Assembly (NCBI RefSeq): GCF_035083965.1
Contig: NC_089728.1
Span: forward strand, 17,671,955-17,735,954
Length of the DNA: 64,000 nt
Source of the DNA: Branchiostoma lanceolatum
Lineage: Eukaryota; Chordata; Leptocardii; Amphioxiformes; Branchiostomatidae
Direction: 5' to 3'
A model generated the notes under the pieces. That model was not told the origin of the DNA. It saw only the letters and a program-made list of their open reading frames with translations, and ran no database searches. The first letter of the stretch is position 1. Each line of letters starts with the position of its first letter. The position numbers and the translations under genes are program-made. Positions 23,282-62,133 of this stretch are shown one piece after another.

Positions 23282-26200
23282 TTAATATTTCCACCATGAG
23301 AGAGGGTGTCGCGCCCTGCGTCCCATCTCGGCCCACAGAAGACGGTTCTCCTGCCGGAACCCCCTCAGTGCGGTCCTGTTCTCCAGGGCCCGCCGGTTCA
23401 GGTAGGCGATGGTCGTGTGGAGCGGCCCCACCGGCACGGACTTGTAGACCGCATAACCTGCTCGAGCTGTGTAGTGAGAGATTCTTCATTTTTAGCAAGT
23501 TATCCTCAATCGTTTTTTTTTTTACTTAGAACAGCTTATTAGGCCGTTCTACGTCGTTTCCAATGCAAATCCGGCGTTTTCCCGCAAAGAAATTTCGAGG
23601 TGGTAATTTCGCTCAAAACCTCTGTTTTAAGGCTTATTTCGCCGTTCTGAGGCCTAATACGGCCTTTGCGGGTAAAATTTCATCTTGGCTTTTTTAAAAC
23701 TTGCATTGGTGATTTCAGAAAAGACCAATTTTTAATGTGAATTATAGAGGACTTTATTTCATTACTTCTTTAAGTTCTGAACCAACTGCCGCATTTACTT
23801 TGACGTCATGAGCTGCAATTAACTTGATTACCTGGCGGCAGGAATCAAGAACTGGAAGTATGATTTGGAAAATTCGATGATATTAGATAGAAGTGTACAT
23901 ATTTGGTGCAAAAGTCTTTGTTCGTTTAAACAAATCTATACTATTAATATTTGGTACCAATATAAATAACACAAAGGGGTGTCCCTGTGGTGTAGTGGTC
24001 TGCGCTTCTGTCACTCACCACATCTGGCTCAAATTATGAGGAGCCAGAAGGCGTGAGTTCGCGCCCGGGTAGGACACGTCTGGATAAGGGGCGCATCAAG
24101 TCATGCCAAAGACTTTATAAAAATGGTACATACTTCTGAAACAGTATGGAAGTTAAACACACTCCACTGCCAGTGGACTAGCCCCCTGCTGCAGTGATTG
24201 TACCACAGTGTGGCCCAGGGCTACGAAACGAAGATGGGCTCCGCCCTATACACCTTATGTGGGAGGATTTTAATTGTAACTTAACCAATAACACTAAAAT
24301 ACACCATCATAAGGATTGTTCAATGTTCAATGAACATTGCTTACACATACACTTCAAAGATCATAGGGCTGCAAGATCAATGGATCATGAAGTGAAAGGA
24401 AAACCGATGGGGGAGAAATGCACAACTACTTTTAGACCAGAATTCACTCCAGAACTTACCTAGATGATAGGAGATCTGGTCAGCCATTCCATATTGCTGA
24501 CCAAAGCAGATACGCCGGTCATCTTTCTGGATTCCTAACTCCTGCATCCTGGTGAAATATGTACACATCAGAGATAGTACATTAGTCTGTGTTAACAAAA
24601 TCTCTCGCTGGCTGGGGTTAATGCCCCCTTGTAACCGTCGGGCCGGCCGCTAGGAGCGCGATTTAGTCAGGCTGAGAAAATGCCATAAAAATAAAAAAAC
24701 ACCATTATGACCAAATTGATAGTGACCTCTGCTACCAAACGATATGTTTTTAGTTCTTCATTTAGAAAATGTCAACGTCGCCCCCATCATACTCTTTTAG
24801 AAATATCGCATTGGTCCAGTGGCTAGGGTAGTGGACACGAAATCAAGAAGTCACAGGCTCTATTCCCGGCTTGACAGTATGTCCTTGGCAAAGGCACTTT
24901 ACACGACTTTCCTCACTCCATCTAGGTGTAAAAATGGGTACCTGACTTCGGTTGGGGAGGGAAAAGGCGGTATAGAAGGAGAGTAATGGGCTTAGCCTTA
25001 CAATACCGTGCCCTATATACACAGTGGATAACAACCCACTGCCCCTACTGCCTCAAAAAGCCTATGGGACTACCTTCACCTCTACTTTTTCAATAGAGTA
25101 GACTTCAGTTATCTATTAGTATTTCATTTATTGTGTTGTCACCATTCCATCCAACGTTCGTCAAATTTAAAGAAATGTACAAAATGTACAAACATATTTG
25201 GACAATACATCTCTAGCGTTGTTCTGCAATCTGTTTTGCCTACGTAACTGATGGCATACCTCCTGATGGCATGTTTGGCAGTCTCTTCGTTTTGAGTGGC
25301 GACGATGACGTTCACCTGCTCCCCATGGCTGTCGTGAACAAACTGCAGCGTTTTGTCCAGCACGCGATGGTACATGGAACTGGTGTCGTCGTACGTAGAA
25401 TGGATGGGATCTTCATATCCCTGAAAATAAAAGGATATTTCTTTCTCGCGCTGAAATTCTTGTGGCATGAGCTACTTGTACAGTTCAGTCATTTCTTACT
25501 CTGAGTCGTGATAAACACTGCTCTAACGTAGGGTTCCGCAAACCTCTGCCAATGTAATAGCTCCGCAAATCTCTGCCAATGTGATAGCTCCGCAAACCTT
25601 TGCCAATATAATAGCTCCGCAAACCTCTGCCAATGTAATGGCTCCGCAAACCTCTGACAATGTATAACTTATGGCTCCGCAAATCTCTGCCAATGTGATA
25701 GCTCCGCAAACCTTTGCCAATATAATAGCTCCGCAAACCTCTGCCAATGTAATGGCTCCGCAAACCTCTGACAATGTATAACTTATGGCTCCGCAAATCT
25801 CTGCCAATGTGATAGCTCCGCAAACCTTTGCCAATATGATAGCTCCGCAAACCTTTGCCAATGTGATAGCTCCGCAAACCTCTGCCAATGTAATAGCTCC
25901 GCAAACCTCTGCCAATATAATAGCTCCGCAAACCTCTGCCAATGTAAGAGCTACGCAAACCTCTGCCAATGTAAGAGCTACGCAAACCTCTGCCAATGTA
26001 AGAGCTACGCAAACCTCTGCCAATGTAGAAAAGTTTTTGTTTCAAAAGATAGACATTCCTGTAAATTGTACTAGAAAACTGCACTTTGAATGTTATTTGC
26101 TAAAATATTGCCTCCAAATATCAAAGCTAACAACGCTTTTCACAGAGGAACGTCTACCATAGTACCAGTAGATGGAAGAATCACAGGAGTTCTATCTTTT

Positions 26201-29200
26201 TTACTTGTAATAGGCCTGTTAACAAATCAACCAAAGCATATTTGCTGAGAGGCCCAGTGGTATTTTAACGACCGTAAAGCAGGTACTGTATCTCACTGGA
26301 CAGCGCCCAATTGCGCTAGCTAGGAAATTGCGCTAACGTGCGATACTTTTGCGCAAGAAGCCCAGATGACTAAAAAAAAACACGTCCGCGCCCGGAATGT
26401 CACATTCTCAGTTTCGTGACAACTTTTTGAAAATCGCATTGTTGCCACTGAATTAAAAAGCCATTTACAATGGATCAAAACGCATCAAATTGCATCATTT
26501 GCAGTGATAAAAGGATGTTTTCCTTTTTGCGTCATTTTTTTTCCATTTGCCCAACAAATTGTGCCACTTTGCAAACGCTTGGCGCACTTTGGCGCAGTCC
26601 AATGAGATACCCGCTTTGCACACGCACTCACCTGCTGCCTCGCCACGGCCCTCTCGTGGTCCATGTAAGCACCCCGCACGATCTTGATGCCAATGCAAAA
26701 GCCGAGCTGCTGGGCAAGCGCCATGTCCTCCAGTACACTGTTGTATGCGATCTGTAACACAAAAGTCACACAGTTTATTACTTCTGCATTGAAATTGCTA
26801 CAATTGATCCTTGTGCACGTGGTGCCTCATATGTAAAGAATGATTAATAATAATGAATCTCGCTCAGCAAAAGCGACGTTGTGAACATTTTCATACCGTA
26901 CATGTGCATGTGTTATACTTCTTCTTCTTGTCATCCAGACGGACTTTAAGAATCTATATCTATGATTAGCATATTTCTCTCTTTTTAAGACGTGTGTAAA
27001 CGTAAAAAGAGAGGCAAGTAAGTGATAAATCTATAGGTAAAACATAGCATAATTTTGTTACAATACTCAAGGTATCTTAATGCATATAGATGAGCATGAT
27101 TATGCAATAAATTTCATTGGTAAAATATAGCACGGAACTCTACCACTGTATTAGACGCAAAATCGTTTCTTCAAGAAAATCTTGAGTTTCCCTTTACTTT
27201 GAGGTAACACTGGTACGTGTTCCAGACGAGAGGGTGGGTGCGGTTGTACTTGTACATCAGGGCGAGCACCAGACGGGTGATGGCGGGTCGCATGGACACG
27301 TACTCCGCGTCAACCAACATGCGCACGGTACAGGACTCTGCTTGCTGCGCCAGGACAAATAAAGAGAAGTGACCAAAGTTAAGTTTATATGTACGAATGT
27401 GCAGCTTGTAGTACTCTTCAGGACAAACCTGGTGTGTTACGGTGGAAGATCATGAATATATGACATCATAAGGTCACGTGTTCTTATTGATAGGTCATTT
27501 GAGGTCATTCGAACGTGAGGAAGGCTGAAGTACGTTTCAAAAATTTTAATTTCAAAATTTCACGTGAGACACTTTACTGGCTATGTAATACAAACAAACA
27601 TATAACTGAAAATGCTGGCAGTCCCATTTGAAATTACAAGAATATCACCAGTGGGTACATTTCTTATTATCTTCGCCGAGTACTATAGTACTCGGAGAAG
27701 ATTATGTTTTCGGTTGAGCAAGCTGTTTGGTGGGTCTGTATGTATGTCAAGAGCATAACTCAAGAAGCCTTCGATGAATCTTTATGATTTTTGTATTATG
27801 TTGCTATCACTATCAGATGCTGATAAGAAAATATAAATTTTAGTTGGATGCAAGTCCAAGTGGAAGTACATTTTTCTCACACTTACCTTACAGACAGCAT
27901 GCAACCGCAAGAGGGCGTTCCTCAGATGTTCGTTGTCTTCGGCAGTCAGGAAGGACAAGTGGAAGTTCTAGGGGTAAAGCAACGGAAGGAAAATAAACCG
28001 TGATAATCAAACAAGATACTCTGCCATCACACGTCATCAGTCAGTCTTGAAACATGAAACATGAGTGATACTCAGTACAGTAAACTGGTCTATTATCATA
28101 CATAATACATATAGCACAGTAAATTGGTTTATTGCAATTCATCATACATACACAATGATATACACTTTCGTAGCCGCCGGGCCAGATTGCAGTGTACTAC
28201 TAGTATACACAACAAGGCTCGTAATCATAATTGCATTACAAAATACATAGTTCCTTGGACACATACGAAGTTTAGCTATTCTCTGTGACTGTGTGACGAA
28301 ATACGTCAAGTTGGATTGAGCGAGGTTACGTTGAGAAAACCTGGTCGCCTTTGTGTAGCTTCTAGACCACATAGTTAGAACCTTAAAGCACCCCAAATTT
28401 CTTAAAGACTAGACGGGAAGATGAAACAAATCACTCACCTTGTTGTCATCACACAGTCCTGTAGACAGGTGCTCAACGGACAACTCTGTTGAACTGGGGT
28501 CTTCTGACAGATGCCGACTTATCGTCACCTGTGGTAGCAATGTAATGACCAGGCCTTGTTGACAACGTCGGAAAAGAGGCCTAAGATACTAAGATTAAGA
28601 AAAACTTATTTTCAACTCGGCTAGATACATTTTTTGCAAGCGAAAAAACCGTTTGCATACGTTTAAGGCAAAAGGAATCCGCACACTGAAGTAGCCGTTT
28701 GGTACCCATGGCCAATTCCCCAAGTGGTTTCAAAGTTAGGCAGCAGGGAGAAGGTTAAACAGAATATTCACAGTTATGATGATCCACTCACTAGCAGCTG
28801 GGCGTGCATAAACGACGTGAGCCTCATCTGGAAGAGTCGCGCATGCGCACCGTGTTGAGCCAGGATATCTGTCGTACTTCTGATGGTGTCTACGTAGTAC
28901 TGCGTGCTGTTGTCATAGAAACGTTCCCTTATGACAGAATGAGAAATATGACATCAGTGTTGTAATAGAAACGTCCCTTAGGAAAGGAGGAAGAATATGA
29001 CATCACTTGACATCACGTGTTCATGAGGTCACGTGTTCTAAGTGGTGGGTCATTCGAGCATCACTGAAGGCTCCAGTCCTGCCGGCCGAAAAATCACGTG
29101 TTCACCACGTGATGTTCACGTGAACTTTAATGACGTGTAGCACATCAGACAGAATGCTGACGTCACTCGATTTTGAAAATAAAGGTCGACTGACCAATTC

Positions 29201-30877
29201 ACAAAAGAACAACGGCTGAAAGGTATTCTTACAATGAGTATTCGGTACTGGTAGAATAAAACAAGAGATCATGTGTACAAAGGACTATAAGAACTTACTC
29301 GATTTGTGCTCTGTCTCCAACGTTTTCTTCAATCGTCAAAAGGGGCATGGAATGTATCCCGGCATCCCTCAGCCTGTTGAATGTTGCCTCTATTTTGTCA
29401 GGCGTGTCTCCTCCGACGAACTGGCCGTAGAAGGTGGCTTTCATCAGGTAACCGAACAACGTCTGGCCAAGAATCCGGCGGCCGAGCTGCATCAGCTGAA
29501 GAAAACACCATTAAGTGAAACAACATAACTTAGCATAGATGATCAGTTGTTGGAACATTATCATTGCATTTAGATGGAAGAAGCAACTCTATCCGCCATT
29601 ATCTCTTTTTAAGACTGTTCGAGACGAGAGTAAAGAAAAATACTGTATCTACATCTGGACTTATCGACCTTAAAATTCAACCGTGACGGGGGATATCACC
29701 AACTACCAACAACCTTTGACCCGTTGCTTACGTTACACTTCCCGAAGTCACGTGTTCTGAGCAATAGGACCAGGCAACTGAACAACCATTAAAAGAATAT
29801 GGAAGAAGTCCTACTATTTACCAATATCTCCTTTCAAGCCTTTGAACCGGGGCGGGGGACGCTACAGACTACCAACTATGATAGCAATAGGATCAGCCCC
29901 ACCTTGAGGTTGTTGTCCACCACTACGTCATAGGTACACATCTGTAACTCTTTGAACCGGGCCGGGGGACGCTACAGACTATCAATAATGATAGCAATAG
30001 GATCAGCCCTACCTTGAGGCTGTTGTCCACCACTACGTCATAGGTGCACATCTGTAAGACCAGCACGGCCCTGGTGATCTCCCATGTAGTCTTCGTTACA
30101 AATGCCTTGGTCGAGTCAGCAAAATCCACCGTGTGGCTGGCTTCATGTTGGTTGTCATACCGGACTAGAAACGCAAGGGAAGCAAATTAATTCTTAGAAC
30201 TGTACTCTGTATTGAAAACTTTGGTAAATATATCTCCTGTACCTGTTAATCTTTCAGAACCATGGTCAGACTTTCGGGACATCATGACTGTGGAACCTTT
30301 ACCATGGTAGATGTCCTATGCAGTACGCAACCCTATCCCGTAATCATTAACGGATCATTAATTTCCAAGCAGATCTAGAGCTAGGACAGTATCCATTTTG
30401 CCAGACAGTATCCTTCCCCGTAGAGATATGCTTAGAGATCATGTAGCATAACGTCCGTAGCATGTCCAGAACAGAAGATAGGAGAAAGAAAATTCTACTG
30501 CAATACCAAGGGAAGTCGATAGGAGGCCCAGGATCGAACTTGTACAGCCAGTAGGTACCCATCTGAGTAACGAGACTGTTGTAGTGCATTTTAACGTGCG
30601 CTAAGTTTGAAAGTGCTTTTGAAAGCATCATCGATTGGGTGTAACAGCTGTTGTTGTTTTGTTAGTACTGTATAGTAGCAATGTTACCGTAACGCAAGTA
30701 ACGGAAAAATTCTTTGCCTTTATGTTTTTATAATCTACACTGACCTGACTTGACGCTTAAGTGTCGTCCTTGAGCTGCTAGAATCCTTGGTTGGTAGCTA
30801 AGTCGTCCTGTCTGTCCTATGACCGGCCTCCATCCTATCGCCCTCCGGGTAAACACCCTCCATCCAGGGACAGCCAT
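23282..30877 (-). CDS. prodh-like: proline dehydrogenase (PRODH/PRODH2 family), 493 aa
   Basis: Eleven minus-strand exons join in frame: 30877-30745, 30164-30013, 29495-29299, 28927-28792, 28528-28439, 27967-27887, 27344-27198, 26751-26632, 25420-25260, 24548-24460 and 23457-23282. The FAD enzyme of the mitochondrial inner membrane oxidises proline (or hydroxyproline, PRODH2) to the pyrroline carboxylate. The N-terminus (MAVPGWRVFTRRAIGWR...) is a typical matrix-targeting peptide. Core motifs are MLVDAEY (about 272-278), GIKIVRGAYMDHERA (about 333-347), GYEDPIHSTYDDT, CFGQQYGMADQIS, and the substrate-contact helix YLNRRALEN (about 454-462). Its length is near PRODH2; I cannot separate PRODH from PRODH2 by eye. 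The last acceptor is an NAGNAG (GAGCAG), so two isoforms that differ slightly before GYAVYK are possible. Confidence 0.9.
23976..24275 (+). mobile_element. tRNA-derived SINE
   Basis: GTGGTGTAGTGGTCTGCGC is the A-box region and GTGAGTTCGCGCCCGGG the B-box. An unusually long interval between them contains an inverted pair CTGGCTC/GAGCCAG. The body (24100-24265) matches the SINE body at 2230-2400. It lies in PRODH intron 10. Confidence 0.65.
24800..25065 (+). mobile_element. tRNA-derived SINE, second family
   Basis: TTGGTCCAGTGGCTAGGGTAG starts a head with a B-box-like CAGGCTCTATTCCCGGC. The body has CCTTGGCAAAGGCACTTTAC and a CCTGACTTCGGTTGGGG segment. A minus-strand relative lies at 36333-36490. 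Confidence 0.6.
25530..26035. repeat. 27-bp minisatellite, about 18 units
   Basis: The unit is close to GCTCCGCAAACCTCTGCCAA plus TGTAATA. Within it a block of about 120 bp is itself duplicated (25565-25670 and 25686-25790, including the ACTTATG variant junction). It lies in PRODH intron 8. Since 27 is divisible by three, long frames appear in several registers, but none has gene support. Confidence 0.95.
29841..30067 (-). repeat. 110-bp tandem duplication covering the 3' end and donor of PRODH exon 2
   Basis: TTTGAACCGGG recurs at 29841 and 29951, and the sequences are nearly identical over one 110-bp period. Each copy contains the minus-strand coding end QMCTYDVVVDNSLK (copy 2) or QMCTYDVVVDNNLK (copy 1) and a donor (GTAGGG or GTGGGG). 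In copy 1 the upstream sequence GAGTTACAG looks like an acceptor, so a 39-nt alternative exon is conceivable. Confidence 0.85.
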
Positions 30878-33339: not shown

Positions 33340-34350
33340 TACAACTTATTATCTCCATGAAAAAAGGCTTTTTCATGGAGATACTGTTTTGCTTGCGTTT
33401 GGTGTTTGTGTGTATGTATGTATGTGTCACCGGACGCTTAAAGTCACCATAACTGTAGAACCTGTACATGGATTGTAATGATTTTTGGTATGTGGGTGGG
33501 TGTTAAGAGGAGAAAGGTCAAGGTCGATTTTGGGCCCCCTGGCATGTGTGACTGGAACTGCAATGGCGTATTTGTTAAAATCTTCAATGTAGAAGGACTG
33601 AGGAGTGGATCGACAGATTGTCATGTTCTTTGTTACACAGGTAGGTTAGACCAAGTTGTACACACTTAAGTGCAAACTATGCAAATGAGGCCGAATTTGC
33701 ATACGTAAGGAGGTAAATCGTTTGCATGGGTGTCGTCGGATGCTTAAAGTCAGCATAACTGTAGAACGTGTAGATGGATTGTAATGATATTTGGTATGTG
33801 GGTATGCGCTGGGAGGAGGATGGTCAAGGTCGATTTTGGGCCCCCTGGTTTGTGTCCCTGGAACTGCAATGGCCTATTTGTAAAAATGTTCTAAAGGGGT
33901 ATAACTGAAGAGAGGAACAACAGATTTTCATGTTATTTGGCACGCAGGTAGGTTGGACAGAGATGTACACACTGAAGTGCAAATCATGCGAAGTTAGTGT
34001 GTTTGCGTGTGTGTGCGCGTGTGTGTATGTTTGTGTCACCGTGTGTGTATGTATGTGTCACCGGACGCTTAAAATCAGCATAACTGGAGAACGTGTGGAT
34101 GGATTGAAATGACATTTGGTATGTGGGTAGGTGCTGGGAGGAAAAAGGTCAAGGTCGATTTGGGGCCCCCTGGTATGTGTCACTGGAACTGCAATGGCGT
34201 GTTTGTAAATATTTTGCAAGGAGAATAACTGAAGAAAGGAGCGACAGATTTTCATGTTATTTGATATGCAGGTAGGTTGGACAGAGATGTACAAACTGAA
34301 GTGCTAAGTATGCAAATTCATACTGAATTTGCATAAGTAATGAGGAATAT
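33340..34350 (+). repeat. three tandem-like copies of the GGGCCCCCT repeat
   Basis: Units of about 330 bp begin near 33400, 33720 and 34050 (CACCGGACGCTTAAA or variants), each with GATGGATTG, a GGTATGTGGGT segment, AAGGTCAAGGTCGATTT and GGGCCCCCTGG, ending in ATGCAAATT. The block opens with a short hairpin, ATCTCCATGAAAAAAGGC paired with its complement (33352-33385). A fourth copy lies at 57.88-58.4 kb. Confidence 0.8.
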
Positions 34351-35929
34351 CTACTCTATTGTGGGCTTTGAGGTCGCACCATCTGTTGGTCTCTTATCTA
34401 GGTCAGTAGCTATCTATAGCCACTTCTCCCCTTGCCCGGCCAGTTATGGTCATACCATTGAGCGATATAGAATGGGGGGAACTGGTTTAATAAAAAAAAC
34501 AAAGTTTCACGGAGATTTTGGGTCCTAAGACTCTTGTTAGAATCTCTTTTGCTAACCTACAACTGGACTCTAAGTGTGATTATTCATCAGAACGCCTCTT
34601 TGTTGCTACAACCAATTGGCTACGGCACTACGGTGAAATTTCCCGCCGCCATATTCGTTACCCAGAATCCTGCTATTCGGCAAACGACAAACGTTTGCGA
34701 GGAACACTTTTTTGTCTAAATGTTGTGTGTGATAGTGGACTGATGGCGATATTTTCCTCAAAGTTTGCTCTTAGCACAAGCAGAAACACATGGACATAGT
34801 AGTATTACCATTTCTACGGCATCCAGCTAACGCCCCGATGTATAATGTACAAATTTCCATGACGGTGGGGGTTGACTTTGAGTGACGTTCTACCGACTCA
34901 ACACACGGGTTGTTCCCGGAGGCCTGATGTGTGCGGTACGGCCGTTTTTTCGTGTATTTTTTTTTACTTGGACACGTCTATATTTATAGCACTCTCCTCA
35001 AGCCAAGGATGGAACGAATAGCTGCTGTATAAAATGTAATTAGTGGTAAGATATTCAAGACGAATCTTCTCTCCCGAATTAATGTTCACCCCTGTCCGAC
35101 AGCACCGTCATTGTGCGTGCGGCGGACGGTAGTTTCAAGTTGAAATATTATGGTGTCAGCACGATTAGAGACAAAATCTACCATATATATGATTAGTGCA
35201 AAGATAGTATATGATACTGACAGAATAATAGAAAAAAAGGATGGTTTATTGTTCTGCTAGATTGATTTCAGTCAACCATTATTGGAAAAATCCCGAATTT
35301 ATGTTACCCAACGTTACATTCCTGCAAAGTTATATTGATGAACATCGAAGCATAAGCCTTCTAATATGAAAAAAATGCAAACATTCCTGAGAGATCTAGA
35401 ATGTGTACAGTACAAATATTCTCACCTGTGAGGCACAAAATCGGACGACAATGTTAGAGATATCTTAATGATGATCCGCCACGGTATTACTTCTGCGTGA
35501 AATGAAGTCGAACCTGTCTGGTCGCTCTGGAGCTTATTGTGAGTCAAGGTTTCACCTCTGACATGGGAGTGGTAATTGTTGATTCGAAGCTTGCTGTTGA
35601 GTGAAGTAGACAGTGTAATGAGATTTTCGATATGGTGCAACTGATTGTTATTTTTGTGCATTGGGTAAACAAATACTAGAAATACTAGGAAAGATCACTC
35701 AAAAATTGTGTCTTAACAAAAGAGCGTAACGTTGCCGCAGGAGTTGCGTTTCAACATGTTTTTGGTTTAGTTTAAGTTTGCAGCCGAAGAAGTCATTTCT
35801 TTGGTTCGATAAGCAGGTTGTTCAACGGTAGGTCAAAGTGAAAAGCTACTTCTTCCCCGCAAACTTTACTTAAACCAAAGAAATGTTGATGTGCAACTCA
35901 TACGCACTTGAATATACGCACAAGTGTGA

Positions 35930-40778: not shown

Positions 40779-43700
40779 TCAGTGAAAGCGGTATTTCCTC
40801 GCGGGTTTTAGGTTGACGTATGTCTTCTTCATGTCCTCGGTCTCGGATGACTTGACCTCCGTGTAGCGCTCCCCCTTCTTGCTGACCACTTGGCTGTCTA
40901 AGTAGCGTACAAGCTTCTTGGGCTCCTGAGGAAAAATCAGAAGACAAGCCAAGTAGCAGTTACTCAAGCAACAGGATATGCTTTTGGAAACAGTCAGAAG
41001 TTTCAAGTAGCATCCACTACTTTTCGTCAGTGACTCTGAGCAAGATTTGTCGAACAGCAGGTTTTTAAACATGAACTATGAATTGAAATGCAAATAAAGT
41101 GAAGACAATTCTAGATAGTCTAATAGGAAAAAGAAAATAGACAAAGTCAAGATAAGGTTAAAGGCACCCAGAGCATCTCATGAGGCTTAAAAACTGGAAT
41201 TATTCTAGTTGCTGTAATCTTAATGAAATTGGCATTTAATGCCACTGTTTACCACATTTGCGTGCAGATTTCTTATCAAAAGTGCTCAAAAAAGGCACAA
41301 AAATAAGCTACATGGTGATCTTTTAGTTTCACGCGCCTAGTGTAAATAGACTGATACCATAGCCCCGACCACCACACCGTCAAAACGTAGAAATGCAAAC
41401 TTAAAACATAGAAATGCAAATATTTGACGGACATGCAGTCACTCTCTCATTGGTTGAACCGCTAATTGTGTTGGACAGTCAGGATCAGTCTATTAGGGCT
41501 TGGATTTTTTATCAGTTCTCACTACGCAACGACATCATATCTTTGATCCTTTCATGTCGATATGTAATCATGGTATAGTGTTATTGAAACTTACTATGTG
41601 TAGGAATGACTAGAAATTGAGTTTTTTTATTCAAGTTTTAAGCCTCATAAAATTCTCTTGTTTCCTTTAATGTAAAAGACACAATAGCTCCAGTTGTTTT
41701 AGTACAGGAGCTAAAGCTGGTTCGCGGGTAAGGCTGGGGCCCAAGTGCCAGACAGTTTGATCCGCAGCTCTCCTTTCCTGTTGAGGGTTGGATTGTACAT
41801 CCTCTCATATATTGCCTCCCTAACTCCACGTTCAAACCAGCGGGGTTCGCGGCCTAGGATATCGGTGGTTAAACGGGTTTTGAGATTAAAAGAGTGTCCT
41901 AGGCCTGGTTGTCTTTTCCTCAGTGCAACAACAGTGACAACTAGATATCGAACCCGGAAATTCCTCTGCAGTACCATAGCAAGCCACTAGGGGTCCCAAA
42001 ATCTAATCATTTAGAGGTGTCAAGACTACCTACCCACATACCAAGTATGAAGACCATCCAGGCATTCTCGAGTTATGCTGTTTCCAAAAGACTAACACAC
42101 ACACGAACGCTGTGCAAAACATAACCTTCTCGCCAAAGGTAACAACACAACCTTCAGACTGTTTCTTTATGTCATACAGAACCCTTATTTTATCAAACTG
42201 ACAAACCAATATTCTTAACTATGTGGCAGGTTTTTGGTTATGCAAAATCAGAGATGATCAAACAAACTAATAAAACCATTCTGCAAATAAAAAAAGATCT
42301 GGGTACTCACCGATTTGGGCGCTATTGGTCGATGTTCTCTTGTGTCATCATCAACATCTACATACGAATATCTAAGGAAAAAAATACCCCATCATTAGCA
42401 AATACAAACTTTATTGCAAATAAATGCCTGAGGGCTAACAACACATATAACAGTGATAAATATAATGGTATCAAGGGCTACATCTAATATTATGATACAT
42501 TCTAAAATGTACATTCTAGTAGACATCAAACAAGTTTCAACATAGAACACCACCACTGATGTAGAAGTTCTACAGACATAATTCAACTGCTCCAAATGGC
42601 TTCAATAAGAAAAAGAATAGGGTTAAAGAAGAAAAAAATAAAAATTTAATGTGAAAATTACAGAAGGAATCCATACAATATCTATTTATAGAATAGAGGG
42701 GCTGATTGCACAGGATTGAACCATGAGTAACTGTTGTCTCTCACTTTGCTATGATGTCCTTCTTAAGGTGTCCATCGTCTTTACTTCTGAGTGCCTGTCT
42801 CTTTTTCCCTGGTTGGTACGCCTGCAGAAAATCAGTTCATGTGAAACACAGTCAGAATTACCATCAAAATGCTCTGCGACAGAAAAGCAACAAATGACTA
42901 GTACTACATTAAAAGAAAGTATCTGTTAAACTAATATCAATATTGGCACACTTGTTGGCTTAAGATCACTTCCAACTGTCACTACCCTGCCACAGTACTG
43001 CAGACAAATTGTGACAGTTGGAAGCCAACTAAAGCTAACAAGACTGGATTCCAGACTTAAGTCCTCCCCACACCCCTCCTCCATAGCATACATAGTCCAG
43101 TAGTTAGCTGCCATGCCTCTAAAACTAGCAGCTGTGAGTTTGATTCTGGTTTTGTATCGCTCACCTGACATGCACGCTACCGGAAAGGGTCGCAGTCCTC
43201 AGAACAGGACATTAAGACATGGTCCACTGTTTATTGTGCTTGTCGAAAAGAGCTAGGGAAATTTCCCCGGTACAATGAATTTGTAAATACTGTCTTCTCT
43301 GTAGAAGAAGAATAGCTCTTCAGTGAGCTATTAAAACTGTGACAGGCACTTTTTCCATACCTGCATACACTCCCCGGACTGTTGTCTCTCCATGACCAGC
43401 TGAACCGCGTGCTCCATGTCACCGTTAGCGACCCTATAACCCCCCCCACCCCTCCTCCGTACCTGCATACACTCCCCGGACTGTTGTCTCTCCATCACCA
43501 GCTGTACCGCGTGCTCCATGTCACCGTTAGCGAACCTATCCCCACCCCCCACCCCTCCTCCGTACCTGCATACACTCCCCGGACTGTTGTCTCTCCATCA
43601 CCAGCTGTACCGCGTGCTCCATGTCACCGTTAGCGACCCTATCCCCTCCCCACCCCCCACCCCTCCTCCGTACCTGCATACACTCCCCGGACTGTTGTCT

Positions 43701-46700
43701 CTCCATGACCAGCTGAACCGCGTGCTCCATGTCACCGTTAGCGACCCTATCCCCCCCACCCCTCCTCCGTACCTGCATACACTCCCCGGACTGTTGTCTC
43801 TCCATCACCAGCTGAACCGCGTGCTCCATGTCACCATTAGCGACCCTATCCCCACCCCCACCCCTCCTCCGTACCTGCATACACTCCCCGGACTGTTGTC
43901 TCTCCATCACCAGCTGTACCACGTGCTCCATGTCACCGTTAGCGACCCTATCCCCACCCCCCCTCCTCCTCCGTACCTGCATACACTCCCCGGACTGTTG
44001 TCTCTCCATCACCAGCTGAACCGCGTGCTCCATGTCACCATTAGCGACCCTATCCCCACCCCCACCCCTCCTCCGTACCTGCATACACTCCCCGGACTGT
44101 TGTCTCTCCATCACCAGCTGAACCGCGTGCTCCATGTCACCGTTAGCGACCCTATCCCCACCCCCCCTCCTCCTCCGTACCTGCATACACTCCCCGGACT
44201 GTTGTCTCTCCATCACCAGCTGTACCACGTGCTCCATGTCACCGTTAGCGACCCTATCCCCACCCCCCCTCCTCCTCCGTACCTGCATACACTCCCCGGA
44301 CTGTTGTCTCTCCATCACCAGCTGAACCGCGTGCTCCATGTCACCATTAGCGACCCTATCCCCCCCCCCTCCCCTCCGTACCTGCATACACTCCCCGGAC
44401 TGTTGTCTCTCCATCACCATCTGTACGGCGTGCTCCATGTCACCATTAGCGACCCTATCCCCACCCCCCCCTCCTCCGTACCTGCATACACTCCCCGGAC
44501 TGTTGTCTCTCCATCACTAGCTGTACGGCGTGCTCCATGTCACCATTAGCGACCCTATCCCCCCCTCCCCCCTCCCCTCCTCCGTACCTGCATACACTCC
44601 CCGGACTGTTGTCTCTCCATCACCATCTGTACGGCGTGCTCCATGTCACCATTAGCGACCCTATCCCCCCCTCCCCCCTCCTCCGTACCTGCATACACTC
44701 CCCGGACTGTTGTCTCTCCATCACCAGCTGAACCGCATGCTCCATGTCACCGTTAGCGACCCTATCCCCCCACCCCTCCTCCGTACCTGCATACACTCCC
44801 CGGACTGTTGTCTCTCCATCACCAGCTGAACCGCGTGCTCCATGTCACCATTAGCGACCCTATCCCCACCCCCCCCTCCTCCTCCGTACCTGCATACACT
44901 CCCTGGACTGTTGTCTCTCCATCACCAGCTGAACCGCGTGCTCCATGTCACCGTTAGCGACCCTATCCCCACCCCCCCCTCCTCCGTACCTGCATACACT
45001 CCCCGGACTGTTGTCTCTCCATCACCAGCTGTACCGCGTGCTCCATGTCACCTTTAGCGACCCTATCCCCCCCCCCCTCCTCCGTACCTGCATACACTCC
45101 CCGGACTGTTGTCTCTCCATCACCAGCTGTACCGCGTGCTCCATGTCACCGTTAGCGACCCTATCCCCCCCCCCCTCCTCCGTACCTGCATACACTCCCC
45201 GGACTGTTGTCTCTCCATCACCAGCTGTACCGCGTGCTCCATGTCACCGTTAGCGACCCTATCCCCACCCCCCCTCCTCCGTACCTGCATACACTCCCCG
45301 GACTGTTGTCTCTCCATCACCAGCTGAACCGCATGCTCCATGTCACCGTTAGCGACCCTATCCCCACCCCCCCCTCCTCCGTACCTGCATACACTCCCCG
45401 GACTGTTGTCTCTCCATTACCATCTGTACGGCATGCTCCATGTCACCATTAGCGACCCTATCCCCACCCCCCCCTCCTCCGTACCTGCATACACTCCCCG
45501 GACTGTTGTCTCTCCATCACCAGCTGAACCGCGTGCTCCATGTCACCGTTAGCGACCCTATCCCCCCACCCCTCCTCCGTACCTGCATACACTCCCCGGA
45601 CTGTTGTCTTTCCATCACCAGCTGAACCGCGTGCTCCATGTCACCATTAGCGACCCTATCCCCCCCCCCCTCCCCTCCGTACCTGCATACACTCCCCGGA
45701 CTGTTGTCTCTCCATCACCAGCTGTACGGCGTGCTCCATGTCACCGTTAGCGACCCTATCCCCACCCCCCCTCCCCTCCGTACCTGCATACACTCCCCGG
45801 ACTGTTGTCTCTCCATCACCAGCTGAACCGCGTGCTCCATGTCACCGTTAGCGACCCTATCCCCCCACCCCTCCTCCGTACCTGCATACACTCCCCGGAC
45901 TGTTGTCTCTCCATCACCAGCTGAACCGCGTGCTCCATGTCACCGTTAGCGACCCTATCCCCCCACCCCTCCTCCGTACCTGCATACACTCCCCGGACTG
46001 TTGTCTTTCCATCACCAGCTGAACCGCGTGCTCCATGTCACCATTAGCGACCCTATCCCCCCCCCCCTCCCCTCCGTACCTGCATACACTCCCCGGACTG
46101 TTGTCTCTCCATCACCAGCTGTACGGCGTGCTCCATGTCGCCGTTAGCGACCCTATCCCCACCCCCCCCTCCCCTCCTCCGTACCTGCATACACTCGCCG
46201 GACTGTTGTCTCTCCATCACCAGCTGTACGGCGTGCTCCATGTCACCGTTAGCGACCCTATCCCCCCCCCCTCCCCTCCGTACCTGCATACACTCCCCGG
46301 ACTGTTGTCTCTCCATCACCAGCTGAACCGCGTACTCCATGTCACCGTTAGCGACCCTATCCCCACCCCCCTCCCCTCCGTACCTGCATACACTCCCCGG
46401 ACTGTTGTCTCTCCATCACCAGCTGTACGGCGTGCTCCATGTCACCGTTAGCGACCCTATCCCCACCCCTCCCCCCCTCCTCCGTACCTGCATACACTCC
46501 CCGGACTGTTGTCTCTCCATCACCAGCTGTACGGCGTGCTCCATGTCACCGTTAGCGACCCTATCCCCCCCCCCTCCCCTCCGTACCTGCATACACTCCC
46601 CGGACTGTTGTCTCTCCATCACCAGCTGAACCGCGTACTCCATGTCACCGTTAGCGACCCTATCCCCACCCCCCTCCCCTCCGTACCTGCATACACTCCC

Positions 46701-49700
46701 CGGACTGTTGTCTCTCCATCACTAGCTGTACGGCGTGCTCCATGTCACCGTTAGCGACCCTATCCCCCCCCCCTCCCTCCTCCGTACCTGCATACACTCC
46801 CCGGACTGTTGTCTCTCCATCACCAGCTGTACGGCGTGCTCCATGTCACCGTTAGCGACCCTATCCCCACCCCTCCCCCCCTCCTCCGTACCTGCATACA
46901 CTCCCCGGACTGTTGTCTCTCCATCACCAGCTGTACCGCGTGCTCCATGTCACCATTAGCGACCCTATCCCCACCCCCCCTCCTCCGTACCTGCATACAC
47001 TCCCCGGACTGTTGTCTCTCCATCACCAGCTGAACCGCGTACTCCATGTCACCGTTAGCGACCCTATCCCCCCCCCCTCCCCCGTACCTGCATACACTCC
47101 CCGGACTGTTGTCTCTCCATCACCAGCTGAACGGCATGCTCCATGTCACCGTTAGCGACCCTATCCCCACCCCCCCTCCTCCGTACCTGCATACACTCCC
47201 CGGACTGTTGTCTCTCCATCACCAGCTGAACCGCGTACTCCATGTCACCGTTAGCGACCCTATCCCCCCCCCCTCCCCCGTACCTGCATACACTCCCCGG
47301 ACTGTTGTCTCTCCATCACCAGCTGAACGGCGTGCTCCATGTCACCGTTAGCGACCCTATCCCCACCCCCCTCCCTCCTCCGTACCTGCATACACTCCCC
47401 GGACTGTTGTCTCTCCATCACCAGCTGAACCGCCTGCTCCATGTCACCATTAGCGACCCTATCCCCACCCCCCCCTCCCCTCCTCCGTACCTGCATACAC
47501 TCCCCGGACTGTTGTCTCTCCATCACCAGCTGTACGGCGTACTCCATGTCACCGTTAGCGACCCTATCCCCACCCCTCCTCCGTACCTGCATACACTCCC
47601 CGGACTGTTGTCTCTCCATCACCAGCTGTACGGCGTGCTCCATGTCACCGTTAGCGACCCTATCCCCACCCCTCCTCCTCCGTACCTGCATACACTCCCC
47701 GGACTGTTGTCTCTCCATCACCAGCTGTACGGCGTGCTCCATGTCACCGTTAGCGACCCTATCCCCACCCCCACCCCTCCTCCGTACCTGCATACACTCG
47801 CCGGACTGTTGTCTCTCCATCACCAGCTGAAACGCGTGCTCCATGTCACCGTTAGCGACCCTATCCCCACCCCCACCCCTCCTCCGTACCTGCATACACT
47901 CCCCGGACTGTTGTCTCTCCATCACCAGCTGTACCGCGTGCTCCATGTCACCGTTAGCGACCACCAGGCAGTGCTGCGCCTCCAGACTGGCACAGGAGGG
48001 GAACATCTCGCACAGGAGACGGACCTGACCCTCAAACTCCTCCCGTAAACTATCCCTCTCTTCCTCCTCTGTTTCCTCCGTCTCGTTCTGCGGATATGGT
48101 TCAGTAAATGAGTCAAAAGCAGGCTATTAGCTAGCATGACGTCAGGGTGTCTTCTGGATGCCCTACACTAAGAAAACAAAGTAATTAGCGCATCGGCTTT
48201 TCAGCGAATGCCCACAAACGCCCACTCTGGCAAAGTCCGCGCTGCACGAATCTAATTTTTTTTGCTCGGAATATGTTCAGGTTGTGCTCCCATTGATTAA
48301 TACTGAGTTTCAAGTCAATCCATCGATCCGAATTTAGATAAAGCGAACTTGAAGATTCTTACCTGGCTTTTTAGCGAATGCCCAGCAAAAAAGGCTTTTT
48401 AGCGAATGCCCAATATATCAGCCAAAATATCGGCCATCGTGACACGGGCGCCAAATCTAACACCATAAACATGTTCAACAAGTTGTCCCCTGAATGTATA
48501 CTCAGTTTCCGTGCTTTACACGCCTGTAAAGTCACTTTATTTTACGAAATACACGGCGCGGGAATCCACGGCCCCGGACGTAAAAATCCAATATGGCGGC
48601 TCATTTGCATATTTGGGACAGGTTACCAGCGGCCTCTATCCCGTATACGTGCCGTGGGTCGCGCCGTGTATTTCGTAAAATAAAGTGACTTTACAGGCGT
48701 GTACAGCTCGGAAACTGAGTATACATTCAGGGGACAACTTGTTGAACATGATTATGGTGTTAGATTTAGCGCCCGTGTCACGATGGCCGATATTTTGGCT
48801 GATATATTGGGCATTCGCTAAAAAGCCATTTTTTGCTGGGCATTCGCTAAAAAGCCAGGTAAGAATCTTCAAGTTCGCTTTATTTAACTTCGGATCGATG
48901 GATTGACTTGAAACTCAGGATTAATTAATGGGAGCACAACCTGAACATATTCCGAGCAAAAAAAATTAGATTCGTGCAGCGCGGACTTCGCCAGAGTGGG
49001 CGTTTGTGGGCATTCGCTAAAAAGCCTGTCCCAGTAATTAGATGCCTTCCTTTTACAGGCTACACACAGAGGACATGTGTCCCCCCCATGCACACACATT
49101 ACGACTGTTGTTTTTTCCTCATACCATGACACTGGGACAGCATAAAAATTGAAAAATTGATTGACATGCAAAGTCACCAGGGCAGGTAATCTTAATCCAT
49201 AGAGCCCATTGGGGAAGTCTGAGTTATTGATGATGATGTGAAAAATATTCAAAACAGAGATTGTAATGATTTTCAACAGGCAGAAAAATATGTTTCAAAC
49301 ATCTACCTGTTGTTGACTGGTTCTCTCCTTGTCTAGTCTTGTGTTTTCCTGTGCAGCCTCTGGTCTTTTTGTTGACAACTTTGTTTTCGGAGGCGTTGTT
49401 GAATCATCAGTACAGCTTCTAGATGGTGGTGGAGTATTTTCTGTGAAAAGATATTGTAATGTGATGTTATCACAAGGGGACATGCCAACATGATTTTAGA
49501 TTTTCTGATTGGCCAGGCTGTTCCAAAAGGTATTGGCACCCAACCAGGACGTTGGAACTGCAACTTTGCCCTTGAATTTTGCGGTCAAATAGCTACACAT
49601 CATAGGAAAAGGACGTCAGATTATGACAATAGAGCTACATATCTACCAAGTCAAATGGTTATTTTTTCAATAGTTTTTTTTAAATTTCATTTTGCTCAGG

Positions 49701-52700
49701 CATACCTGTTGACTACCATAAAGGAAGGTAATTCAAAATCAGTTTTATCCCCCGAAAATCGGATTTTGAAAGTCAATCTATGTATTCATTTCTATACATG
49801 ATTAGTTCAAACAACACCATCACAATGTATAGCGACGTCCATCATGCAAAAATATGACGTCGCTACCATAAAGATTTCAGCATTTATCTATTTACACTTT
49901 TTGGCCATAAAACTGCTTTACCTCCCTTTAAAAGCAGATATTTTTTAGGAAAGAATTTCCCAACTTCTTACCTTTTTCCCTTGCCTGTGTCAGCTTTCCA
50001 GCTAAGTTGAACATCCATTCACACACTTGGATGCTGTCGATCTGCCCGAACCCTGGTTGGTAGGCGTCCATCATCTCAACAAACTGGTCGACATCAAAGC
50101 TGTCTTCTGAGGAGTCTGGTGTCCCGAGGTCCTCTAGCACTCCAGTCATGTACTGCAGCACAATCTCGTCTACACAGCTGATCAAGAGGGAAAGGTTTGT
50201 TGAATGTGAGTAGAGCTGTGTACCTATTAAACAAATTTTAGGTACAGGTACAGGTACACAGGTTTAGGTACAGGTCCGGACCTGAACCTGTACCTAAACT
50301 ACTTGTTCGGAAAATGCTAGATTTTCAATAAGGGCAAAAGCATGTTTGAACTGGTAAAAACATAATATTTGATTGTGCTGGGTATTATTTTTATAAAAAC
50401 ACAGATGAAAATTTGACTCAAGCCTTGCAAATGTGTTTTCTGTGCTTTAGAGTGGCGTTAGAGCACTGCCACGGTAATTTCATAGTAATTTCATCTGTCA
50501 AAGTGGCCATCCCCTGAGTCAGGTCCAGTATACAGCAGGGTCAGGTATTTTGGAGCTGTACCTAATTGATTGTACAGTGTACCACACAGCTCTAACTGTG
50601 AGAAGAATGTATGATGTGTATCACTAGCCTTAGAACGTCCATATATGTATATGTTTGTATTGTGATGATTTCGCAATGAGGCCACACCAATTTATTTTCT
50701 TGGTTATTAACGGAATAAAAAAATGCTAGATTGGAAAAACAACATGAAAACAGAATGTTTTTACTTTGGTGCACATGTAGTATCAGGGAGGGAACAGGGT
50801 CAGGTGCAAGTTTTCACCCCTGAGCCTTCTGTTTTGAATATTTTTTTTTGGCTAAAATTAAAAATAAATTCCATTAACCAAGAAATTGAATTGGTGTGGC
50901 CTGAGAGGCCATTGTAAAAACTGTGACCTTACACACGCCATGAAAATTAAAGGTGCCCAAAGAAGTTTTAGGCATTGAAAGTCGGATTTTCAAAATCAAT
51001 TTGCTAGTGAATTATATCCATATTAAGTTTAAATGACACTATCCCATCGCATATCAACCATCATGGATCAAAGATGAGATGTCATCGTGTGGTGGGAACT
51101 CATTGAAAATCTGAGCGCTTGGACTTTGGAGGCAAGCTATTATTTCAAATCTTCCTAACGTGTGCGATTCTGAACGATGAGTCCCAAACACTTCCGGAGA
51201 ATTAATCACATCAGGGCTCGAAATTCGTTTCTTGAAATAGGTGCACTGGTGCACCCAACCAAAAAAATTAGGTGCACAGAAAAAAATTTGGGTGCACCAC
51301 ATAAAATAAAGTTGAATGGCAACAAAACATAAGTTTGACGCTACTTCCTCTCTTAGAACTTCAATCCACAATTCTATCCAGATGTCAAATTTCAACCAAG
51401 CAATACATCAAATAAAGTACAACAAAAGGTTATATTGTCTTTTCTGATGCTTACATTTCAAGAATATTCTGTATGCTAGTGTACAAGAGAACCTTCACCC
51501 TATAGAGTACAAAAATATCTAGGTGCACTGATGCACCCACAGTTAAAAATTGGGTGCACAGCTCCAATTCTGGGTGCACACAGGTGCACATGCACCCACT
51601 ATTTCGAGCCCTGCACATGGTCATGGTTCAATGTGCTCGGACATTGTCACGTCACACGGCCGAAAGATATTGAAAAAGTATGAAATAATGATGCAAATGT
51701 GCTAATGTGAGGAAGTAAATGTCAATTTACTACAGATTGCCTTATCCAGAATACTTCCAGTTTTATCCCCTGAAATCGCTAGCCAGGCGGGGAGCTTGGA
51801 TATCGATATAGCAGGGTGCGAAATACCAGGTTGCACGTTGCACAGTGCAACAAGATTTCGGTTGGTGCAAGTTAATTCCAAACCCAGGTAGCGCAGTGTG
51901 CAACCTTATATTTTGAGCCAAAGATTTCAATCGGAGCCCTGGAAGCTCACAAAAACACAGTGTCACTCTCATAAAATTCGGTAAATCTTCAATTGAAATA
52001 AAGAAATCAACAATTTTTCGTTTTAAACCATCCAAAACCCTTCATAGATCGTGGAATTTGAGCTGAAAAAGAAGAAGACACACTGCCCTCAGCTAAACAA
52101 GATGTTGTTAGGTCAATGGGAACACAATACTATCTAATATATATTTTGAAATGTTAGTAGTATTATATGCTACATACGAGCTTGATTTGAAGAAATCAGT
52201 GAATGTTGCTAGTGCAACCTGAAATTTGGATGTGCAACCTAGCATTTGCCCTTGGTTGCAACATGGGCAACCTGGCTCAAAAAAGTATTTCGCACCCTGT
52301 ATAGCGAACTAAAGCTACATGTAAGAAGGCTGGACTCTAGGCTATGAAATTGCTTAGGGCACCTTTAAAGGCAACCAAAGCAATATTAGGGCCAAAAAAT
52401 GGAAATAAAGATTATGCTGAAATCTTTATGGTGGTAACATTTACTAACATTGTTTAGCACATTTACGTAATAACTTTATACTTTTAGGGTTTTAAAACCG
52501 TGCAAAATCGTGCCGTGCGATGATCCCCTTAGGTTTGCGAGCCAACAAAAACTTCAGCCACGATTTTCAGTGAGTTCTTACATCACAACAATGTCATATT
52601 TTTGCATTATGGACGCTGCTATACATTGTGATAGTGTTGTTTGAACTAATCATGTATAGAAATGATTAAATAAATTGACTTTTAAAATCCGATTTTTCGG

Positions 52701-59231: not shown

Positions 59232-61802
59232 ATGACACCCGCAAGACGCTACAGTTACTTTGTTATAGTTCTTGTTGTGACGTGGAGTGGAACTCGGCTT
59301 GAAGCAGCAAATCTTACGTGTTGTTCGAAATCTGGGAACCAATTTTGGCTCAGATATAGTCGGGCAGCCTGTTCTTTCCGACATATCCCCTCTCCGTTAC
59401 CATCAACTCTCAGACAGTTACATATATCGGGTCAGAACATCGCGAACATCAAAGTGGGGGATTTTCCCCGACTCCAGTCTTTGGAGAAGCTGGTCATATG
59501 GAAGAACTACGTTGTGACTCTACAGCCAGGGGCCTTCCAAACCTTGCCGGGGTTGTTTGAACTGAATCTCCGTGGAAACAATATCAGACGACTGGAGGCA
59601 GGAACTTTCAAAGGACTGGAGCAGCTACACATTCTGGACTTGAGTGAGAACGAGATATATCACATTGACCGTGCAGTTTTTGTTGGACTGACTGCACTGA
59701 GAACACTTCGTTTAAGCAAAAATTGCCTTTCGAGTATTCCACCACTGCCAAAGCCAGATAGATCCCCCGATCTAATGCTCGCCATATCAGACAATCCTAT
59801 CACATCGATCTTTGATGTCAGTGAGCTAAAGCACATCTCATGGTTGATGCTGACTCGCAACAAGATTAAGTGCGACTGCAGGCTGCGTCAAATCAAGAGA
59901 TGGATTCTTGCAAATGAACTCTCTGTTTGGATCTCCTGCATCGTAAAGGCTACTGGAAAGATCAAACATGTCAGATATATACAATGGGATGATCTGAGGT
60001 GTTCCTCACCTGACGTGTCTGTTATAGTAGACAATGGAACTGTCACGGGTAACGCTTCCCTCACCTGTCAAACAGACTGTCTGGATGGCCTGACGTTCTC
60101 CTGGATAACACCGAGTGGACACCACAGCTCATCTAGTTATGAGGACTCTAAGAACTACATCCGTGAGAACAACTCGTCTTGTAAAGGCTCTCCCGTCACT
60201 ACCTTGGAAACAAGGAGAATGTGCTTCTCTGTGTTAAGTGTCTCAACAGTTGGTAACGACACAGAAGGTATGTACACATGCCAAGTGAAGGCTGACCATG
60301 CAGACAATGCAAGCGTATCTGTGTTCCTCACGGTTGATGACATTGAGACATTTGCCAGAACACGCACTCCTGAGCTCCAGACGACAGCAATGAGTACCAC
60401 AGAACCAGCTGGGGACAAAGATGTTGAAGAGGGGACCACACATCGTCCTGGTCATGGACTCTCTACGTCACAGCTCATATTTGCTGTGCTGGGGTCTTTC
60501 TGTGGATTTTACGTCATCTTTGGGGTGGTGGCTGCTTGTGTGAGCAAGTGTAAAGAGGGCAGACAGAAGGGCAATGCGGGAGGACAAGGGGATGCTGCGA
60601 ACAGACACTACGAGAACGATGACCAGTTCTCAGACACAGATGGATCAAGTGAACATGACTACGAGAACGGTGACCAGTTCTCAGACACAGATGGATCAAG
60701 TGAACATGCCTACGAGAACGACGACCAGTTCTCAGGCACAGACGGGGCAAGAGGAGGACATGCCTACGAGAACGACGACCAGTTCTCAAACACAGACGGG
60801 GCAAGAGGAGGACATGCCTACGAGAACGACGACCAGTTCTCTGACACAGACGGGGCAAGAGGGGGACATGCCTACGAGAACGACGACCAGTTATCAGACA
60901 CAGACGTGGCAAGAGGAGGACATGCCTACGAGAACGACGACCAGTTATCAGACACAGACGTGGCAAGAGGAGGACATGCCTACGAGAACGACGACCAGTT
61001 ATCAGACACAGACGGGGCAAGAGGGGGACATGCCTACGAAAACGATGACCAGTTCTCAGACACAGACGGGGCAAAAGGGGGGCACTATGAAAACGACGAT
61101 CAGTTTTCCGATGATGATGTGAGTAAGCACTCACACAAGGCAATCCCTGGTGAGAAGACGATGTCCTCAACTGACAAAGCAAGAAGGGCCAGACGTCTTC
61201 ACAACAGGAGAGACTTGGTCAAAGCAAGAGAAATACCCAGCAACGACAGAGCCAAGGCTATCGCAAACACGGTAGCTGTCCATGCTGAGGCACAGTCAGG
61301 TGGACATTATGACAACGAAAGGTCTGGGAAATCCTTTGGACGGAGATGTAGCGGCAATGAGACCCAGACAACCGCAAACAACGCGGCATGTGGTGAGAAG
61401 GAACAGTCAGCCGGACACTATGACAACGATAGGAAAAACAAGGGCTTATTATTATTAGCTTCAAGTGCCACCCCAAGAGGCGATGACGACGGTGACTCGG
61501 ATCATGATTACATGTCGTTACCTCCGAATGGCCCAACAGAAGGAGACACTGGTGGTGTGCAGTGTGAGAGCACATCGGAAGTCCTCGACCCCGACTCCGC
61601 GTCAGATCACGACTACATGACGCTCCCGGGGACGGAAAATTCGGACGAACAACAAGGAGAAACACACTTGAAAGACGGACAAGTGTCAGGCTCAGCCACT
61701 ACTTCGTTCAACATAGAAGGCAACTCTGATCACATCTATGTGCCGATCCCTCAGTCGAGGAAATCAGACGAACAGCAAGAAGATTTGTATGGCACAGAAT
61801 GA
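59232..61802 (+). CDS. LRR-Ig type-I membrane receptor with tandem YEN tail, 856 aa, intronless
   Basis: Signal peptide 1-25; leucine-rich repeats about 70-210 (LEKLVIWKN, LFELNLRGNNI, LHILDLSENEI, LRTLRLSKNCL); LRRCT-type cysteine cap about 210-255 (KIKCDCRLRQIKRWI); Ig domain about 259-369 (LTCQT ... GMYTCQV); one TM helix about 415-437. The cytoplasmic tail starts with ten tandem 16-18-residue units, such as HAYENDDQFSDTDGARGG (about 457-632). Two HYDN motifs, DYMSLP, DYMTLP and IYVPIP follow. YEN/YDN fits the pYxN preference of Grb2-type SH2 domains; YMxL fits ITIM/ITAM-half or YxxPhi endocytic signals. The extracellular plan resembles LRRIG receptors (AMIGO/LINGO-like), which are expanded in lancelets. 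Ligand and function are unknown. AATAAA lies at 62646-62651. Confidence 0.88.
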   Translation: MTPARRYSYFVIVLVVTWSGTRLEAANLTCCSKSGNQFWLRYSRAACSFRHIPSPLPSTLRQLHISGQNIANIKVGDFPRLQSLEKLVIWKNYVVTLQPGAFQTLPGLFELNLRGNNIRRLEAGTFKGLEQLHILDLSENEIYHIDRAVFVGLTALRTLRLSKNCLSSIPPLPKPDRSPDLMLAISDNPITSIFDVSELKHISWLMLTRNKIKCDCRLRQIKRWILANELSVWISCIVKATGKIKHVRYIQWDDLRCSSPDVSVIVDNGTVTGNASLTCQTDCLDGLTFSWITPSGHHSSSSYEDSKNYIRENNSSCKGSPVTTLETRRMCFSVLSVSTVGNDTEGMYTCQVKADHADNASVSVFLTVDDIETFARTRTPELQTTAMSTTEPAGDKDVEEGTTHRPGHGLSTSQLIFAVLGSFCGFYVIFGVVAACVSKCKEGRQKGNAGGQGDAANRHYENDDQFSDTDGSSEHDYENGDQFSDTDGSSEHAYENDDQFSGTDGARGGHAYENDDQFSNTDGARGGHAYENDDQFSDTDGARGGHAYENDDQLSDTDVARGGHAYENDDQLSDTDVARGGHAYENDDQLSDTDGARGGHAYENDDQFSDTDGAKGGHYENDDQFSDDDVSKHSHKAIPGEKTMSSTDKARRARRLHNRRDLVKAREIPSNDRAKAIANTVAVHAEAQSGGHYDNERSGKSFGRRCSGNETQTTANNAACGEKEQSAGHYDNDRKNKGLLLLASSATPRGDDDGDSDHDYMSLPPNGPTEGDTGGVQCESTSEVLDPDSASDHDYMTLPGTENSDEQQGETHLKDGQVSGSATTSFNIEGNSDHIYVPIPQSRKSDEQQEDLYGTE

Positions 61803-62133
61803 CGGACAAGTGTCAGAGTCACACACTACTTCGTCCAACGCCGAAGACAACTCTGATCACACCTATGTGTCGTTCCCTCAGATGGTAAAATCTGACGAAC
61901 AGCAAAAAGATACGGAACAGAAAGACGGACAAGTGTTAGACTCAGTCACTGCTTCGTCCTACACAGAAGACAACTCTGATCACACCTACGTGTCATTCCC
62001 TCAGATGGTAAAATCTGACGAACAGCAAAAAGATACGGAACAGAAAGACGGACAAGTGTAAGACTCAGGCACTGCTTCGCCCAGCACAGAAGACAACTCT
62101 GATCACGCCTACTTGGACGGAAAATGCTATTGA
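61803..62133 (+). pseudogene. decayed continuation of the receptor tail
   Basis: Beyond the stop the sequence continues two to three more tail repeats (period about 135 bp), readable in a shifted frame (SDHTYVSFPQMVKSDEQQKD, twice). Compared with the next repeat, the segment before the stop carries a net 4-base insertion, which shifts frame and exposes TGA at 61800-61802. A second change (GTGTTA to GTGTAA, about 62057) stops the shifted frame as well. Allelic variation or an assembly error is possible. Confidence 0.75.

Follow-up and report, generated by a model that had tools for sequence, protein, structure and literature searches.

We analysed a 64,000-nucleotide stretch of the Branchiostoma lanceolatum genome (contig NC_089728.1, positions 17,671,955 to 17,735,954; hereafter the window, whose own numbering is used throughout), in which the gene CUEDC2 lies on the minus strand and carries a minisatellite of 46 units that begins within its exon 4. 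The gene model is partial and runs from 50177 down to 40779, comprising exon 2 (coding, 49972..50177), exon 3 (49307..49440), exon 4 (47890..48087; 198 nt, the final 73 of which form the first unit of the array), exon 5 (42745..42821), exon 6 (42311..42371) and exon 7 with the stop codon (40779..40925); exon 1, which accounts for 25 residues in the B. lanceolatum CUEDC2 protein P0001, lies outside it. When exon 4 ends at the first donor of the array, the reading frame of exons 2-7 is intact and gives a protein of 273 residues with 97% identity over 273 aa to P0001 (298 aa, no repeats), and the placement of exon 4 follows from this model and this identity. The identity is 88% to CUEDC2 of B. 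belcheri and 73% to a predicted protein of B. floridae; the top three protein matches are all from Branchiostoma, and the next match listed has 50% identity. A literature search for Branchiostoma together with CUEDC2 found no paper in the collection searched, and scanning the window for tRNAs and Rfam families gave no match. Intron 3 (1,219 nt) contains a nested near-perfect inverted repeat at 48195-49026, with 206-nt arms of 96% and 174-nt arms of 97% identity, which ends 107 nt upstream of exon 4 and is a foldback or MITE-like (miniature inverted-repeat transposable element) structure, a potential long hairpin within the CUEDC2 pre-mRNA.

The array occupies 43361..47962 on the minus strand, and its repeat unit spans an exon/intron boundary, with the final 73 nt of exon 4 and a splice donor in each unit, followed by a G-rich linker in every unit except the last. 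The motif CAG|GTA(C/T)GG occurs 46 times on that strand between 47889 and 43360, with 96-108 bp from donor to donor; it reads CAG|GTACGG at 45 sites and CAG|GTATGG at the last. Unit 1, with donor 1 (GTACGG, 47884..47889), is the true end of exon 4, and 45 more copies stand downstream in intron 4; unit 46 ends at 43361, and its donor (GTATGG, 43355..43360) adjoins single-copy intron, with 539 nt from there to exon 5. The exonic part has equal length in all 46 units without a single indel, and Tandem Repeats Finder (TRF) reported 45.8 copies with a period of about 102 bp and 93% matches over 43354-47962. The anatomy that a preliminary description had proposed from the letters alone is confirmed in detail by these results, as are the gene name, the roughly 46 copies each with its own donor, the repetition of some 70 coding bases of exon 4, and the junction of the top copy with the true exon and of the bottom copy with the presumed original intron. 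On the plus strand, a proline/leucine-rich open frame of 369 aa runs antisense to the array at 43440-44549; we attribute the plus-strand open reading frames (ORFs) across the array, this one included, to the repetition itself.

The array is known from one haplotype, and the possibility that its copy number is an artefact of the assembly has to be considered, as long near-identical arrays are difficult to assemble and one globin repeat of a similar kind was apparently misassembled in a draft, as described in PMC3087553. The units are, however, individually marked by 24 exonic haplotypes and, once runs are collapsed, by nine linker classes, while five pairs of units are identical throughout, and an artefact seems very improbable to us. 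The identical pairs lie 1-4 units apart (8/10, 14/17, 20/24, 28/29 and 37/40), which shows local copying within the array. The TRF score was slightly higher at a period of 303 than at 102 (7697 vs 7679); a strong higher-order repeat was nevertheless rejected, with a mean of 2.37 exonic differences at offset 3 vs 2.57 over all pairs. Likewise, divergence from unit 1 shows no trend with position in the array.

The bottom copy probably carries the ancestral donor. The B. floridae predicted protein runs past the donor of the corresponding exon as V-W-G-R-G before it resumes in the next exon, and since this read-on needs GTNTGG followed by G-rich sequence, it fits the GTATGG of unit 46. By the same predicted protein, the G-richness of the intron start would be older than the array. 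A canonical G-quadruplex motif is present on the sense strand in 38 of the 45 donor-to-donor units and on the antisense strand in none, and the remaining 59.3 kb of the window contain no such motif on either strand. The linker alone is sufficient for the motif in 9/45 units; in most units the motif extends beyond it, presumably as far as the GGG where linker and exon meet. Work in yeast (PMC5491262) found that G-quadruplex minisatellites tend to be unstable when their loops are no longer than 3 nt, and it is plausible that the motifs drove the expansion of the CUEDC2 array. CEB1 and CEB25 resemble it as G-rich tandem repeats with short loops; for these minisatellites, however, instability has been shown in yeast and no splice-site role is evident in that account (PMC5491262), whereas for the CUEDC2 array the instability is an extrapolation.

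Minisatellites of exon/intron boundaries have been described in amphioxus under the name of mirages, in Adh3, the globins BflGb6 and BflGb9, TnC and PGBD5, and in these accounts they are length-unstable and judged harmless to splicing and mRNA (PMC3087553, PMC3902484). The CUEDC2 array shares with them a tandem unit that spans an exon/intron boundary in an amphioxus genome, and it appears to be a very long new example of this already described phenomenon, with 46 copies against 6 and 3 in BflGb6 and 2-7 in PGBD5 among the copy numbers given there (PMC3087553, PMC3902484), although we claim no record. It also has G-quadruplex motifs in most units, the scan for these having covered this array alone among the mirages. 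It is likely, with a probability of roughly 0.83, that the array is such a mirage, that it is spliced out from donor 1 by exon definition, and that the CUEDC2 protein is normal. The process would have started with the tandem duplication of a segment across the boundary, with G-rich sequence already present on its intron side, after which the G-quadruplex-prone repeats would let the array gain and lose units. During splicing, recognition across the exon would pair exon 4 (198 nt) with the closest donor, that at 47889, the remaining 45 donors and the array would be removed as intron 4, and the protein would stay normal; unequal exchange between alleles may occasionally move array units through the position of the true exon. 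The alternative that the preliminary description had allowed for, a large tolerated variable number tandem repeat from which only the first donor is used, agrees with this known behaviour of amphioxus boundary repeats.

Donor 1 is predicted to be the donor used on the basis of the single-copy proteins of Branchiostoma and other homologues, the mirage papers and human data on donor choice. In human exons with long flanking introns and splice sites of matched strength, the upstream donor is favoured, and in five minigenes with identical strong donors the upstream one was exclusively used, according to PMC9225289. In CUEDC2, intron 3 has 1,219 nt and even donor 46 stands 539 nt away from exon 5. 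By approximate matrices, which underlie all splice-site scores given here, the array donors are comparable to the gene's other donors. Donors 1-7 are equal in strength, and this could be read in favour of leaky donor choice, whereby splicing at donors 2-7 would with some frequency yield CUEDC2 isoforms longer by one to six units of about 34 residues each. When each of the 46 donors was joined in turn to exon 5 and the ORF checked, donors 1-7 each left the ORF at full length, with 273 to 475 residues encoded by the partial model, and donors 8-46 (39/46) did not, the first in-frame stop of the array lying at 47262 and donor 7 (GTACGG-type, 47278..47283) being the last with a full-length ORF. The expectation that the frame would stay open for at least the first several units was thus correct, and at most six extra units are translatable into a full-length protein because the ORF is complete for donors 1-7 only. 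Leaky choice would also agree with the bias of the variation between units towards synonymous sites, which is treated below, and with the case of PGBD5, where a JGI (Joint Genome Institute) gene model calls the boundary repeats an exon with predicted splice sites (PMC3902484). On the other hand, use of donors 2-7 would raise the length of exon 4 to 300-804 nt, and the units that could be translated are no better conserved than the later ones: 15/46 units have an amino-acid change, 3/7 among units 1-7 vs 12/39 among the others. The six in-frame spacings at the start are ordinary for the array, in which 21/45 donor spacings are divisible by 3; the idea that selection has kept the start of the array open was rejected, as 5/45 circular shifts do equally well. 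Nor did the protein searches, each restricted in length or in candidates, find a repeat-bearing protein: none of the 120 homologue matches listed among 306 has more than one copy of the repeat, a search in which 8000 candidates were scored matched only three single-copy Branchiostoma proteins, and a short-query search gave 28 candidates, none at E <= 0.001, although this was a weak test, its length limits having excluded full-length Branchiostoma proteins. The full-length CUEDC2 proteins of three Branchiostoma species have one copy each. Taken together, we regard isoforms from leaky donors as unlikely, and the protein-repeat idea is poorly supported.

The preliminary description had also suggested a length-variable ubiquitin-binding array, and the selection of the repeats for such a function is, of all the alternatives, the one to which we give the least credence. 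The synonymous bias among the units would be expected under it, and a nine-unit ORF scores above the UBA_4 cut-off in sum (37.9 vs 21.8 bits); no single stretch is above the cut-off, however, and the best one covers UBA_4 positions 25-41 of 43. The unit peptide has 24 residues and an arginine/glycine linker, and in a weak alignment (E = 0.19) with the CUE domain of Cue2 (1otr) the repeated part corresponds to the C-terminal portion, with the MFP motif upstream of it. Tandem CUE proteins would repeat the whole fold with its MFP motif; here only the last helix is repeated, and we do not regard one array unit as a CUE domain because it holds this helix of the fold without MFP. With no full ORF beyond donor 7, no more than six extra units, no repeat-bearing protein in the searches, amino-acid changes in the units, a leading frame run that is common within the array and no better conservation of units 1-7, the suggestion is poorly supported. 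The idea that the amino-acid changes tend towards residues found in homologues was also considered and rejected (4/8, counted by hand, vs an expected 0.41-0.47).

Because every unit ends in AG|GT, each is formally a GT...AG interval, and this allows for stepwise removal of the array, in which each AG|GT would be a dual-specific or recursive site that serves twice, initially as an acceptor and, once regenerated, as a donor. In human UBC, dual-specific sites are known and AG|GT likewise stands at each boundary of the tandem units, and such sites are enriched in tandem-repeat genes, as reported in PMC10809524. Within the array, the highest-scoring AGs are the unit-end AGs (in the top five listed), and these outrank 85% of all AGs in the gene region, 777 in number. 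However, purines predominate ahead of the AG, and the acceptor scores of the unit ends have a mean of -0.67 and a maximum of 0.59, whereas the six modelled acceptors range from 3.99 to 12.32. In UBC each unit is an entire ubiquitin monomer and the sites have been shown to be used (PMC10809524), whereas the units of the CUEDC2 array are not complete coding monomers and do not preserve the frame (fewer than half of the spacings are multiples of three and no full ORF extends beyond donor 7), the later units are untranslatable and the acceptor side is poor. Stepwise removal appears quite improbable, slightly more so than leaky donor choice. The earlier statement that the array offers no new acceptors needs qualifying: every unit is formally a GT...AG interval, and its AG, although weak, scores above most AGs of the gene region. 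A similar likeness exists to the Rogers model, in which tandem duplication of an AGGT-bearing segment leads to intron gain, as outlined for potato RdRp and ATP2A1. The CUEDC2 array shares with it the duplicated AGGT-bearing segment that creates formal GT...AG intervals, but in that model a new intron is created, while the CUEDC2 copies appear to lengthen an existing one.

The variation among the copies suggests, tentatively, that older variants have passed through the true exon via unequal exchange between alleles. In the 72-nt exonic part compared, there are 18 distinct variants, of which 10 are synonymous and 12 at third positions. Variants shared by at least two units are mostly synonymous (8/11), and singletons (2/7) match the expectation without selection. 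Under 16 mutation models the expected synonymous fraction was 0.19-0.36, which gives P values of 0.0006 to 0.074 for the excess among all variants and of 0.0002 to 0.015 among the 11 shared ones. Present translation explains this bias poorly, because the units past 7 are outside the full ORF and units 1-7 are not better conserved. If units pass through the true exon position under the mirage reading, the older array variants would carry a coding filter. In its strongest form, the end of exon 4 would be a rolling member of the 46-unit array, and unequal exchange would swap the true end and array units in both directions, so that substitutions in the minisatellite would remain coding-like although most of it is untranslated, and its units would form a reserve of alleles for the exon end; this we consider possible rather than probable.

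Several points weigh against the reading as a mirage spliced from donor 1 and against its individual steps. The synonymous bias concerns 18 variants and a test chosen post hoc, with P = 0.07 under the strongest correction tried, and the difference between shared and singleton variants is not significant (Fisher P = 0.14). Just 9/45 linkers contain the G-quadruplex motif by themselves, with the GGG at their junction with the exon left out of account, and the link from the motif to expansion is one that we infer. In the human data, about 60% of events favour the downstream donor when strength is not matched, and weakened donors led mostly to skipping of the larger minigene exons (PMC9225289); the last donor of the array scores slightly above the others (8.58 vs 8.26). 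In addition, two acceptor-like sites in distal intron 4 on the minus strand, at 42875 (11.82) and 43300 (9.14), outscore the exon-5 acceptor (6.38), and because of this something may be missing from the gene model or from the matrix, and an unmodelled exon at 42875/43300 is possible.

The CUEDC2 array lines up 46 almost identical donors whose main difference is their position, and as a natural experiment it could be used for testing exon definition in a non-vertebrate chordate. It also suggests a possible cause for the expansion of boundary repeats in amphioxus, namely G-quadruplex-prone units, and a reason why they are tolerated, and through it one can examine whether a coding exon and its copies in the intron exchange sequence.

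A probable second mirage is present in the window in a gene similar to proline dehydrogenase (PRODH-like), where a 110-bp period occurs twice at 29840..30057 on the minus strand, with the last exon base at 30013. The two copies are identical at 101 of 108 aligned bases and span 45 nt of exon, the donor and 65 nt of intron, with the donors GTAGGG and GTGGGG. Proline dehydrogenase matches were found in two exon ORFs (Pro_dh, 30.5 bits with a cut-off of 27, and 26.3, just below it). The exon at the duplication was placed by strand, position and splice phase, and as it had no Pfam match when joined to the next exon, its donor counts as putative. A self-comparison of the plus strand gave 24 direct-repeat pairs within 700 bp, the CUEDC2 array and the repeat-rich 2800-3250 being excluded, and among these only the PRODH-like duplication was placed on a donor, in a window in which not every gene was modelled.

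Two further repeats lie in introns of the PRODH-like gene: a two-copy tandem duplication of 49 bp (28908-29005, minus strand) that ends at an apparent acceptor, and a minisatellite of 27 bp x 18 (25535-26027) that is near but off an exon boundary. Elsewhere in the window, tandem repeats of 54 bp x 8.8 (60608-61078, plus strand), which reads HAYENDDQFSDTDGARGG, and of 123 bp x 3.6 (61670-62111, plus strand) are located in and beyond the 3' part of the ORF of a leucine-rich repeat (LRR) protein, past a stretch that is hydrophobic by eye, and a tyrosine motif is repeated in them. A unit of about 306 bp is present at 33410-34351 in three diverged tandem copies with 80-83% identity between copies. 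Finally, 1811-1938 and 2060-2189 are similar copies (85% over 130 bp) without a tRNA or Rfam match, and they contain a GGTTC stretch which we take to be like a tRNA B box, presumably making the copies SINE-like (short interspersed nuclear element).

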